NCBI GenBank assembly: GCA_017883205.1
Contig: JADGNZ010000002.1
Span: 62,001-126,000 of the forward strand
Direction of reading: 5' to 3'
DNA length: 64,000 nt
Source of the DNA: Thermoanaerobaculia bacterium
GTDB lineage: Bacteria; Acidobacteriota; Thermoanaerobaculia; Gp7-AA8
Within the stretch, counting starts at the first letter, position 1. Every line of letters begins with the position of its first letter. The notes beneath the pieces were generated by a model, which was given only the letters and a program-made list of their open reading frames with translations, was not told where the DNA came from and made no database searches. This document shows positions 4,590 through 60,490 of the stretch, in pieces. The position numbers and the translations under genes are program-made.

Positions 4590-5123
4590 ATGAGAAAGAA
4601 CCAGAGGATAGCAATCGCACTCGCGGCGGTGGTGGCCGTCGCCGGAATCACATCCATCGTTCTGAGGCATGGCGGCGATGCGACGACCGCAAAGGAAGAC
4701 CGGGCCCAGACGGTGACCCCGCAGCTTCCCGATACCGCGATTGTGAAGGCCGTTCAGGATGCGAACCTCCGCATCGACGGATTGTCCGCGACCAACGTCG
4801 GCGGGATCGTCGTGCTCAAAGGAACGGCTGACCCGGCCGCAGCGCAACAGGCCGCCGCGGTGATCCATCAGCTTGGCTTCGCGCGCGTGGCGAACCTCAT
4901 CGTGCCACGCACGGCCGTCGACGACGACTGGATGCGCCGCGAAGCAGAGAAGCGCCTGGCATCGACGCGCGCCCTCGACGGCTGCACGCTTCACGTGAGC
5001 TGCGCCAAAGGCATTCTCCGCGTCGAAGGCACTTCGTACAGCGACATGCAGGCCGAAGTCGCCCGCAACGTCCTCCGCCGTCTCGGCGCGAGCGAAGTGC
5101 AGGTGCAGTTGACGAAGCTGTAG
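4590..5123 (+). CDS. Exported BON-domain protein
   Basis: 177 aa. An N-terminal signal or anchor (residues 6-26, after MRKNQR) is followed by two BON-like alpha/beta modules, about 45-105 and 110-175. The phrases NLRIDGLSATNVGGIVVLKGTAD and TLHVSCAKGILRVEGTSYSDMQ are typical BON strands; BON proteins (OsmY family) act in the periplasm and are thought to bind membranes or phospholipids. It is transcribed away from the gntR operon. No partner gene follows closely. Confidence 0.75.
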   Translation: MRKNQRIAIALAAVVAVAGITSIVLRHGGDATTAKEDRAQTVTPQLPDTAIVKAVQDANLRIDGLSATNVGGIVVLKGTADPAAAQQAAAVIHQLGFARVANLIVPRTAVDDDWMRREAEKRLASTRALDGCTLHVSCAKGILRVEGTSYSDMQAEVARNVLRRLGASEVQVQLTKL

Positions 5124-22870: not shown

Positions 22871-23156
22871 AGATCCATGGATCTATTTCGAGAGCCACTC
22901 TGACTCGTGAAATTTGTCCATGGACAATTTCGGTAGGCATTTCGACTCGCTTAATTTGTCTTTGGACTTATTGAGTAGACGAGATGACTACCAAAAGAAG
23001 TCCATGGACATGCTTCAGAAGTCCATGGACATGTTTCGTGTGTCGTTGACACTTGCGAAATAGTTCCATGGACAATTTGAACCCTGCAAAACACTCGCTT
23101 AATTAGTCTATGGACAAATTCTGGTCGTGTATCGCACTACTCTAAGTATCCATGGA
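22871..23156. repeat. Phased array of GTCCATGGAC palindromes, 21/42-bp period
   Basis: Nine sites related to GTCCATGGAC are centred near 22877, 22920, 22962, 23004, 23025, 23046, 23068, 23110 and 23152. The spacings are 43, 42, 42, 21, 21, 22, 42 and 42 bp. Several are extended palindromes (AGATCCATGGATCT at 22871; TTGTCCATGGACAA at 22914). A longer unit ACTCGCTTAATTWGTCYATGGAC recurs at 22903, 22945 and 23093. The region is AT-rich (about 40 percent GC over 22921-22980) and lies between two converging genes. A 47-codon frame (22920-23063) has KSMDMLQ-type heptads but no convincing ribosome site. Confidence 0.85.
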
Positions 23157-31142: not shown

Positions 31143-31565
31143 GTGACCCAGTTCCTCTGCCGCACCGAATCCGAAACCGAGGCCGCCGGCCGCGCGATTG
31201 CGCGCACGCTCGCGCCCGATGCCGTCGTCCACCTCGTCGGCGACCTCGGCGCCGGCAAGACGTTCCTCGCCCGCGCCATCGCCGCGGAGCTGGGCGCGAA
31301 TCCGCTGGATGTGGCGTCGCCGTCGTTCGCGATCGTTCACGAATACCCGGTCGCAGGCCGCGCGCCAATCATCCACATCGACGGCTACCGACTCTCCGAG
31401 AATCGCCGCGAATGGCTGGAGATCGGAATCCCGGAGTTGCTACAGGGCCCGGGAGTGAAGCTGATCGAATGGCCGAAAGGCGCATTCACGGAGTTCGAGG
31501 ATGGGCATGTGGAGATCGCGATTCGCGTGCTCGATGACGGAGCGCGTGAGATCAGCGTGACGTAG
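31143..31565 (+). CDS. tsaE: tRNA threonylcarbamoyladenosine biosynthesis ATPase TsaE
   Basis: 140 aa from GTG 31143. Walker A GDLGAGKT (33-40), switch region SPSFAIVHEY, the IDGYRL strand and the IEWPKG motif identify TsaE. It drives the TsaBD complex that makes t6A37 in ANN-decoding tRNAs, which is essential in most bacteria. The usual neighbours (tsaB, rimI) are not present. A hairpin repeat starts 14 bp after the stop. Confidence 0.95.
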   Translation: MTQFLCRTESETEAAGRAIARTLAPDAVVHLVGDLGAGKTFLARAIAAELGANPLDVASPSFAIVHEYPVAGRAPIIHIDGYRLSENRREWLEIGIPELLQGPGVKLIEWPKGAFTEFEDGHVEIAIRVLDDGAREISVT

Positions 31566-31578
31566 TCCGAATCGAAAG

Positions 31579-31672
31579 CTCACGCGAAGGCGCGAAGAAG
31601 CTGGTAATGTTTTTTTCGCGTCTTCGCGTCTTCGCGTCTTCGCGTCTTCGCGTCTTCGCGTCTTCGCGTGAG
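31579..31672. repeat. Octamer-expanded dispersed hairpin (TCTTCGCG)6
   Basis: CTCACGCGAAGGCGCGAAGA (31579-31598) faces six perfect tandem TCTTCGCG octamers (31621-31668) ending in TGAG. The arms pair like those of the GCGGAGAC family. The run of identical octamers indicates replication slippage. It separates converging tsaE and alcohol dehydrogenase genes and could terminate both. Confidence 0.9.
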
Positions 31673-31676
31673 TCCT

Positions 31677-32702
31677 TCATCGCGTCACGACAGCCCGAAG
31701 GTGGCTCGTTCCGCGGTCGAGATCATCGAGCACTTCGTTGATCGCTTGCGCTTCGAGTGGGACGCGGCGTGTGATTGCCGACGAGAGGTCGATATCGCCG
31801 CGGCGGGCGAGGTCCATCAACTCGGGGAGCTCGCTCAGGAGGTGGTCGGAGCAGCCGATGATGCGGCGTTCGCGCGTGAGGACGTCGGCGTAGGGATCGA
31901 AAGTGAAGGGCTGCGGGCCGAGGGCGACGAGGACGAGGCGGCCGCCGGGGGCGAGTGATTGCAGTGCGGCGAGCCGCGGCGATGCGATGCCGGCGAGATC
32001 GAGGACGACATCGGCTCCATGCCCGCCTGTGATGCGCCTGATCTCGTTGGCGAGATCGTCGCGCCTGGCGTCGATGCCAACTGCGCCAAGGGCTGCGGCT
32101 GCTGCAAGTTTTTCGGGAACAACGTCGATTGCTGTGATCGAGCTGGCTCCGAGCGCGCCGGCGAGTTGCAGCGCGGAGACGCCGAGACCCCCGAATCCGA
32201 TGATGGCGAGCGATTCGCCGGGTTGAAGTCCGGCCAGCCGCAACGCGTGGTAGACGGTGGCGGTCGAGCACATCATCACCGCGGCCTCATCGAACGGAAT
32301 GGACGGCGCAATGAGCACCGCGTTGCGAGCGGGGACGACGATCCACTCGGCGAAGCCGCCGTCGCGTTCCTTTCCGAACATCTCGCCGTGAGCACAGAAC
32401 TGCTCGCCGCCGCGGAGGCAATCGTGGCATTTGCCGCACGAGACGAGGTAGTGCACAGCGACGCGATCGCCGACCGCGACGTTGGTGACGTCGTTACCGA
32501 TCTCGAGGACGACGCCGGCGATCTCATGGCCGAGGGTGATCGGGAGCGCGACGCGGCCACGTCCGGCGCGGTAGTGCGCATCGCTATGGCAAACCCCGGC
32601 GGCGCGGATCTCGACGATGACTTCGTCGGCGGCGGGGGCAGGATCGGGGATCTCCTGGTCCACGAGCGGCTGGGCGGGTTCAATCAATCGGACGGATTGC
32701 AT
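31677..32702 (-). CDS. Zinc-dependent alcohol dehydrogenase (MDR family)
   Basis: 341 aa from ATG 32702; the open frame upstream is repeat sequence. Catalytic zinc ligands are in AGVCHSDAH (Cys36) and TLGHEIAGVV. The structural zinc lobe CGKCHDCLRGGEQFC is complete. A Rossmann domain with GFGGLGVSALQLA follows. It oxidises alcohols or reduces aldehydes with NAD(P); the exact substrate is unknown. It has no operon partners and is flanked by dispersed hairpins on both sides. Confidence 0.93.
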   Translation of the reverse strand: MQSVRLIEPAQPLVDQEIPDPAPAADEVIVEIRAAGVCHSDAHYRAGRGRVALPITLGHEIAGVVLEIGNDVTNVAVGDRVAVHYLVSCGKCHDCLRGGEQFCAHGEMFGKERDGGFAEWIVVPARNAVLIAPSIPFDEAAVMMCSTATVYHALRLAGLQPGESLAIIGFGGLGVSALQLAGALGASSITAIDVVPEKLAAAAALGAVGIDARRDDLANEIRRITGGHGADVVLDLAGIASPRLAALQSLAPGGRLVLVALGPQPFTFDPYADVLTRERRIIGCSDHLLSELPELMDLARRGDIDLSSAITRRVPLEAQAINEVLDDLDRGTSHLRAVVTR

Positions 32703-32722
32703 TGCGGGAAGATACAACGGTG

Positions 32723-32779
32723 TCACGCGGAGGCGCGGAGATGCGGAGAAAACCACCGCGCCTCCGCGTCTCCGCGTGA
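32723..32779. repeat. GCGGAGGC-type dispersed hairpin
   Basis: TCACGCGGAGGCGCGGAG (32723-32740) pairs with 32762-32779 with one mismatch. It is the third member of the octamer hairpin family and sits between the alcohol dehydrogenase start and the response-regulator stop, so it may terminate the two-component operon. Confidence 0.85.
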
Positions 32780-48938: not shown

Positions 48939-49322
48939 TAAACCTCTCAATCTACTGGGGTAACACTAGTTTGATTGATGCGCGCTCGTTTGTCGAACGC
49001 AACAGCCCCTGAGTCTCATGCGTGAGACCTTTTCGAAGGCAATGAGGTAGAGAAGCAAGACCCATTCAGCTCAGCAACTTACGTGCTTTGTGGTTCGCCA
49101 TCATCGCTAACGCGTGGCTTCCCACGCCAAAGGGCGCCAAATCCGGCCGGGGGGCGCTGGAGCCACCCGAGAACTCCCATCCGCCGCCGAGTCGTGTGAC
49201 GATCATCTCGACGTCCGGCCCCTGCCGACGATCTCCAGCCCGACGGAGCCGGCTGGCAATGAGCCGCCAGTCACCAAAAAGAGGCGTGAGCGCCGGCTCC
49301 GAGGAAATGCCGCGGAAACCTC
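48939..49322. other. Intergenic stretch without a supported gene
   Basis: About 380 bp between the EAL gene start and the left hairpin of the 21-bp array. An 88-codon minus-strand frame (49066-49332) lacks a recognisable family and a ribosome site; its start lies in the array's flanking hairpin. TGAGTCTCATGCGTGAGACC (49011-49030) holds a small GTCTCA/TGAGAC palindrome. I see nothing else. Confidence 0.6.
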
Positions 49323-49372
49323 TAACCCGCATTTCTCAAGGGAGCCGCTGAAACGTGTGAGAAATGCGGTTA
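49323..49372. repeat. Left-end hairpin of the 21-bp array
   Basis: TAACCCGCATTTCTCA (49323-49338) and TGAGAAATGCGGTTA (49358-49372) are reverse complements apart from one extra C. They are separated by 19 nt and end 2 bp before the first 21-bp unit. The right arm recurs as GTGTGAGAAACGCGG at 50105-50119, beyond the array. Confidence 0.8.
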
Positions 49373-49374
49373 GT

Positions 49375-49961
49375 GCGGACTCGATGGTTTACCGGTGCGG
49401 ACCCGAGGGTTTTCCATGCGAACCCTTGGGTATTCCGTGCGGACCCTGAGGGTTTACCGCGCGGACCCTGAGGGTTTACCGCGCGGACCCGAGGGTTTAC
49501 CGTGCGAACCCGAGGGTTTGCCGTGCGAACCCGAGGGTTTACCGTGCGAACCCGAGGGTTTACCGTGCGAACCTGAGGGTTTACCGCGCGGACCTGAGGG
49601 TTTACCGTGCGAACCCGAGGGTTTTCCATGCGGACCCTTGGGTATTGCGTGCGGACCCTGAGGGTTTACCGCGCGGACCTGAGGGTTTACCGTGCGAACC
49701 CGAGGGTTTACCGTGCGAACCTGAGGGTTTACCGCGCGGACCCGAGGGTTTACCGTGCGGACCTGAGGGTTTACCGCGCGGACCTGAGGGTTTACCGCGC
49801 GGACCTGAGGGTTTACCGCGCGGACCTGAGGGTTTACCGCGCGGACCTGAGGGTTTTCCATGCGGACGCTTGGGTATTCTGTGCGGACCCGAGGTTTACC
49901 GTGCGGACTGGACGTCTCACCGCGCGGACTGGACGATTCTCCGCCACATGTGCCGGTTCAC
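49375..49961. repeat. Tandem array of about 27 units of 21 bp with higher-order structure
   Basis: The unit is GCGGACCTGAGGGTTTACCGC with variants at a few positions (GCGGAC or GCGAAC; CCTGAGG or CCCGAGG; CCGC or CCGT). A distinctive pair, one unit ending TTTTCCAT and the next reading CTTGGGTATT, recurs three times (TTTTCCAT at 49410, 49622 and 49854), 212 and 232 bp apart. It therefore marks super-repeats of 10 and 11 units. The last two units are degenerate. Because 21 is a multiple of 3, both strands stay open in several frames and give 7-residue repeats. I see no real gene. The copy number is probably unstable. Confidence 0.95.
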
Positions 49962-50195
49962 CGCGTGATCCCTGGATCTCGACGCTGTCGAGCATCGCCG
50001 TGGCCGTTAGGCACGTGCGAGCGATTGGCCTGCATTTCTCTCGCTCTTTCGCAGACCTCATTTCAATTGAGACTTCCAGGGAAAATGAAAGGGCTACAAC
50101 AAGGGTGTGAGAAACGCGGGCTAACGATGTTCACCGTTCGCTCACGACCTCAAGATGAACCATACGTACATTGGCGCATTCGAAAGGAGCGATCC
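49962..50195. other. Right flank of the array and leader of the DUF2911 gene
   Basis: GCATTTCTC (50032-50040) and GAGAAACGC (50109-50117) repeat, with one change and wider spacing, the inverted pair of the left end. GTGTGAGAAACGCGG (50105-50119) is a 14 of 15 direct copy of 49355-49369. After it comes the leader of the next gene, with AAAGGAGCG before ATG 50196. No gene is seen here. Confidence 0.6.
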
Positions 50196-60413: not shown

Positions 60414-60490
60414 GCCCCGGTAGCTCAGTGGGATAGAGCGGCAGACTACTAATCTGCTGGTCGCAGGTCCGAATCCTGCCCGGAGCGCCA
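60414..60490 (+). tRNA. tRNA-Arg-like gene with altered anticodon ACT (possible pseudo-tRNA)
   Basis: A 77-nt cloverleaf: acceptor GCCCCGG/CCGGAGC with one C-A mismatch, D arm GCTC/GAGC, anticodon stem GCAGA/TCTGC with loop CTACTAA, five-base variable loop, T arm GCAGG/CCTGC with loop TCCGAAT, and encoded CCA. Apart from three changes it looks like a tRNA-Arg(TCT). The anticodon reads ACT instead of TCT, the T loop lacks the invariant T55, and the acceptor has a mismatch. A short variable loop rules out normal tRNA-Ser. Probably a decayed tRNA next to mobile DNA. Confidence 0.75.

Follow-up and report, generated by a model that had tools for sequence, protein, structure and literature searches.

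A 21-bp minisatellite between MITE ends, probably moved as one transposed unit, in a Thermoanaerobaculia genome

Within a 64,000-nucleotide stretch of DNA from a Thermoanaerobaculia bacterium (hereafter, the window), the segment 49326-50120 is probably a 795-bp non-autonomous transposed unit, in which a minisatellite lying between MITE ends was moved as a block. The array was probably carried to this site by a small parasitic element. In the literature searched, a minisatellite between transposon ends was reported from Porphyromonas; the window would provide a case, from an uncultured Acidobacteriota lineage, of transposon ends picking up and moving a bacterial minisatellite.

The array is composed of direct repeats arranged head-to-tail without spacers (Table 1) and is intergenic, located between a PAS-GGDEF-EAL gene (minus strand, to 48950) and a DUF2911 gene (plus strand, from 50196). 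TRF reported a period of 21 with 25.4 copies at 49373-49908 and a further 2.2 degenerate copies at 49898-49944. Parsing into units gave 27 (23 of 21 bp, three of 22 bp and one of 20 bp) plus one additional base behind the first unit, which confirmed the count of about 27 copies made in the initial annotation. The super-repeats of 212 and 232 bp proposed there were also recovered: the TTTTCCAT/CTTGGGTATT unit pair occurs three times, with TTTTCCATGCGRACSCTTGGGTATT starting at 49410, 49622 and 49854. Unique spacers are absent and a CRISPR was rejected, in agreement with the earlier reading.

Both sides of the array carry related end sequences. GTGTGAGAAATGCGG is found at 49355-49369, in the left hairpin, and a copy with one change at 50105-50119; when the window was shuffled, 2 of 100 shuffles reached as many matches. 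Within the window, GCATTTCTC has two occurrences (49329 and 50032), GAGAAATGC a single one (49359) and GAGAAACGC three, one of them at 50109. The matching ends noted in the initial annotation are real, and the 15-bp motif is an end of the transposon type. The same 4-bp sequence, CTAA, adjoins both outermost ends (49326 and 50120), whereas the two shorter end pairings have unequal flanks, CTAA/TAGT for 49326-49370 and TTGG/CTAA for 50029-50120. Between the ends there is a non-coding array with its tail and no transposase gene. Shared terminal inverted repeats, a putative target duplication of fixed length and the lack of an internal transposase, as in MITEs, were all found at this locus. A possible two-ended element had initially been drawn at 49323-50124; the two-ended stretch was upheld, but positions 49326 and 50120, each with one CTAA outside it, mark its outer limits more accurately.

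Table 1. Features of the putative transposed unit and its borders (positions in the window)
Feature	Position	Strand	Remarks
Putative target-site duplication CTAA, left copy, 4 bp	49322..49325	.	Agrees with the YTAR duplications seen at intact copies of the family
Outer left terminal inverted repeat CCCGCATTTCTCAAGG	49326..49341	+	3 mismatches to CCCGCATTTCTCACAC
Short left MITE copy or terminal hairpin	49326..49370	.	TTAG after inner end, no direct CTAA copy
21-bp tandem array	49372..49941	+	Family F1, consensus GTGCGGACCCGAGGGTTTACC, ~27-28 units, three TTTTCCAT/CTTGGGTATT pairs
Non-repetitive tail	49942..50028	+	With start of next (right MITE-like) part, 92% over 177 bp common to array C31:178.6k
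Right MITE-like part CCTGCATTTCTC ... GTGTGAGAAACGCGGG	50029..50120	.	
Outer right terminal inverted repeat GTGTGAGAAACGCGGG	50105..50120	-	
Putative target-site duplication CTAA, right copy	50121..50124	.	G001 and G002 homology starts 50126

The end motif belongs to a dispersed, non-autonomous transposon (a MITE), of which it forms the 16-bp terminal inverted repeat, CCCGCATTTCTCACAC. We searched the genome containing the window (G000; 6.37 Mb, 105 contigs) and found 54 copies of the 15-bp motif with at most one mismatch, many of them as inverted pairs, versus 0 for a reversed-pattern control; the congener G002 contains 27 exact copies. Most copies terminate an element of ~60-600 bp, CCCGCATTTCTCACAC ... 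GTGTGAGAAATGCGGG, the interior of which often contains a hairpin module, and a single full MITE copy used as the query matched 116 pieces in G000. The majority of these MITEs have no array. Intact elements of G002 lie between 4-bp direct repeats, CTAA, TTAG, TTAA or CTAG. An identical 4-bp flank was present in 13 of the 33 fetched paired ends; 12 of the 13 conform to YTAR, 8 of these in G002. These results established a MITE family with a 4-bp YTAR target duplication. IS5-group MITEs choose 4-bp YTAR targets, and the window family resembles them in this duplication; neither G000 nor G002 yielded an IS5-like transposase bearing such ends, among the transposase loci covered. These were the PF13701 (IS1380) and PF01609 (DDE_Tnp_1) loci of the two genomes; their fetched flanks carried no matching ends, and neither transposase was retained as the parent. 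In intact MITEs (L024:1500-1805 and similar loci), there is a hairpin-rich module with CCCCTCATCCGGCTTCGCCACCTTCTCCCC and an inverted copy of it, and partial modules are scattered in the genome. One G002 MITE with a TTAG duplication (L140:1746-2326) contains an inserted fragment that seemingly encodes the helix-turn-helix start of a transposase.

The orthologous site was compared in two congeners, G001 (JAFAOU01, Acidobacteriota bacterium CP_BM_ER_20) and G002 (JADGNY01, Thermoanaerobaculia bacterium Chersky.31_28). The array is absent from this site in both, and their right-flank homology with the window starts exactly at 50126, one base past the right duplication. Adjacent to the DUF2911 gene, G001 has a DUF2330 gene (L060:2168-3466), which is reduced to a C-terminal remnant in G002 and lost in the window genome (49003-50125), a stepwise loss of this gene at the insertion site. 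The left flank of the window, 49003-49325, is not ancestral. The pre-insertion site is therefore beyond reconstruction, and the locus has undergone a rearrangement as well. The inserted unit thus has a precise right boundary and a left boundary hidden by rearrangement.

Employing a DNA search followed by two sequence-only profile models (R1 and R2), we identified 21-bp arrays at no fewer than 33 distinct loci of G000, of which 16 have the unit type of the window (F1) and 17 a second type (F2, unit near CATCGTGGGTGCAGAACGCAG); this count covers arrays with units related to F1 or F2. The best circular match between the F1 and F2 units was no better than that of shuffled units. For the 27 arrays not touching a contig end, the median length is 549 bp (~26 units). 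Because six arrays are situated at the end of a contig, arrays of this type probably interrupt assemblies, and their number is probably underestimated; by measured lengths, the at least 33 loci make up ~0.3% of the genome. Many are intergenic, and no preference for gene orientation was seen around them, the orientations being mixed. Arrays of one subfamily often have a common tail of ~100-170 bp on one side only. Of the 60 relatives, just two, G002 and G009, had arrays that could be recognised in any number. These arrays constitute a separate, fast-evolving superfamily of intergenic minisatellites.

Only two of the at least 33 arrays lie between paired ends, namely the window array and that at C2:160047, a second array-bearing element of 762 bp with a perfect left terminal inverted repeat and a CTAG/CTAG duplication. 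One end or a remnant is retained at C1:307k, C54 and C31:178k; a MITE lies within ~160 bp of the C19 and C1:280k arrays; and the C31:178.6k array carries the tail with neither end intact. The F2 arrays at C2:160k and C1:307k have a common tail that reaches the right terminal inverted repeat. About 4 MITE ends were observed near arrays against about 1 expected (Poisson ~0.02, assuming 12% intergenic DNA and ~45 MITE sites), an enrichment that is only suggestive. The absence from the orthologous site was seen for both arrays checked (window and C2:160k), and in the intergenic region corresponding to C2:160k, G002 has a plain MITE. The initial annotation had suggested that array and ends form one discrete element. 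At the window locus this was supported by the terminal inverted repeats, the CTAA pair and the congener homology, with C2:160047 as a second case. By the refuting condition set in that annotation, it failed as a general rule, because in G000 motif and arrays each mostly occur without the other.

The outermost ends are flanked by CTAA and the inner ends are not, and congener homology resumes at 50126; 49326-50120 is therefore probably one transposed unit. A 21-bp-superfamily minisatellite would have been caught between MITE ends, and a transposase acting in trans would have moved array and ends as a block, presumably in a single event, with the insertion generating the 4-bp CTAA duplication. 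The units would have grown, shrunk and been homogenised through slippage or unequal crossing-over, as the unit pairs, the repeated 22-bp variants and the degenerate edge units suggest. Array families also spread without MITE ends, as blocks of an array with a one-sided tail of ~100-170 bp. A less probable explanation, to which we still give appreciable weight, is that a pre-existing array was bracketed by chance, through two independent insertions of short MITEs, one per side, and was never a single mobile unit. MITE copies are common (as the 116 pieces and 54 end motifs indicate), each end region resembles a short two-ended MITE (49326-49370 and 50029-50120), and most arrays have no ends, all of which favours bracketing. 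However, neither short copy has a target duplication of its own, whereas the outer pair does; the same arrangement recurs with another array at C2:160k with CTAG/CTAG, and the array is lacking from the corresponding place in G001 and G002, all of which speaks against bracketing. The single-unit reading also has points against it: CTAA is one of only about four common targets, so that two independent insertions would match at the outer flanks by chance in roughly one in four cases; the related C31:178.6k array has the tail with neither end intact; the left flank is not ancestral, and the site was rearranged; and among the transposase loci covered, none had these ends.

The arrays were also considered as functional sites, an interpretation compatible with transposition of the window unit. 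With 21 bp corresponding to two helical turns, all units are exposed on one side of the helix to a DNA-binding protein. Dozens of phased arrays of ~26 units per genome could then be candidate chromosomal binding platforms for a protein, such as a nucleoid or segregation factor; the sequence of the units would change quickly, with retention of a short core and of the array length, and the MITE ends, otherwise incidental, would occasionally re-mobilise a platform. The similar lengths of arrays away from contig ends and the intergenic position in many places were counted in favour, as were columns of the unit that barely change: 4-20 adjacent-unit changes per column in the F2 TCG core, versus a mean near 46, and 4-8 in three F1 columns. 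These positions may be under constraint, although a simple Poisson figure overstates it because unit changes are not independent events, which weakens the argument from conserved positions. On the other hand, no motif is common to F1 and F2 beyond chance, units of 20 and 22 bp exist, gene orientations around the arrays are mixed, and arrays are numerous in only two of the 60 relatives. We consider such a role unlikely. A large, dispersed superfamily whose arrays resemble each other in length and conserve the core of the unit poses the testable question of a selfish satellite versus a chromosome-organising site.

A structured non-coding RNA expressed across the region, another role raised in the initial annotation, is very improbable. 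The window array folded much more stably than shuffled sequences (z -9.6 and -5.8), but these values are inflated by tandem self-complementary units, and an F2 array folded no better than shuffles (z 0.06 and 1.95); folding of array RNA is not conserved. Rfam gave no match at the array, the sole match in the window being a tRNA at 60414, and no promoter-like or terminator-like site was found. Even less credible is a repetitive protein-coding gene with units of seven codons. Some reading frames are open throughout arrays, but the 20- and 22-bp units of the window array shift every frame and the substitutions in F2 are spread over the three codon positions without bias (47.6/48.7/40.3 per column); coding was rejected on these grounds.

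The nearest precedent for the window element is BrickBuilt of Porphyromonas gingivalis, which has the same architecture. BrickBuilt is a MITE with a 23-nt minisatellite of imperfect units, present in 19 copies that are always intergenic; only 4 of the 19 have both ends, and no transposase lies inside (PMC4596501). The two elements have in common a spacer-less minisatellite, non-repetitive leader/tail segments and short inverted ends; as regards leader and tail, one-sided tails are common to the arrays here, and a leader-like second side is not clearly shared. They differ in unit length (21 bp versus 23 bp), in the terminal repeat (CCCGCATTTCTCACAC here, GAGACCTTTGCA in the published table of BrickBuilt, PMC4596501) and in the target duplications, which are YTAR here and vary in BrickBuilt. 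Unlike BrickBuilt, most arrays here are without ends and several unit families exist; most MITEs here contain no array, whereas BrickBuilt copies running from leader to tail always contain at least one repeat. Another P. gingivalis MITE with internal tandem repeats, MITEPgRS/464 (PMC4596501), is similar in having such repeats but differs in their size (41 nt) and in its ends. No description of such arrays in Acidobacteriota was found in the literature searched, the coverage of which excluded most subscription journals. The window element combines a BrickBuilt-like architecture with an array superfamily of which the searches gave no description.

Several other repeats were encountered during the searches. 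A 44-49-nt inverted repeat on GTTGTCGGTTGTCGGTTG that brackets the C23:49k and C2:160k arrays (L011:1375-1418 and 2278-2321, L128:4040-4088 and 4832-4880) was rejected as array-specific ends, being a common intergenic repeat found in dozens of places in G000 and G002. The flanks of the arrays at the C68 end and C103:89k (L126, L125) are 92% identical over 429 bp despite different unit types, and represent a duplicated locus with diverged arrays; another duplicated locus is indicated by a 435-bp flank, 81% identical, of the C20:68k and C16:66k arrays (L192, L195). Some F2 arrays (L194, L244, L245) pass into a 20-bp period on one side. On contig C51 of the relative G012 (L062:1500-2100), a repeat on GATCAGGTC/GCTCAGGTC weakly matched the array and is probably an unrelated, repetitive coding region. 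Elsewhere in the window, a 21-bp unit, AGAAGTCCATGGACATGCTTC, the sequence of which is not related to that of the array, occurs at 22996-23037 as two copies 95% identical to each other, and a perfect 8-bp tandem repeat, TTCGCGTC (6.9 copies, 100% matches), is located at 31615-31669, between the ends of the ORFs 31143-31565 (+) and 31677-32756 (-).
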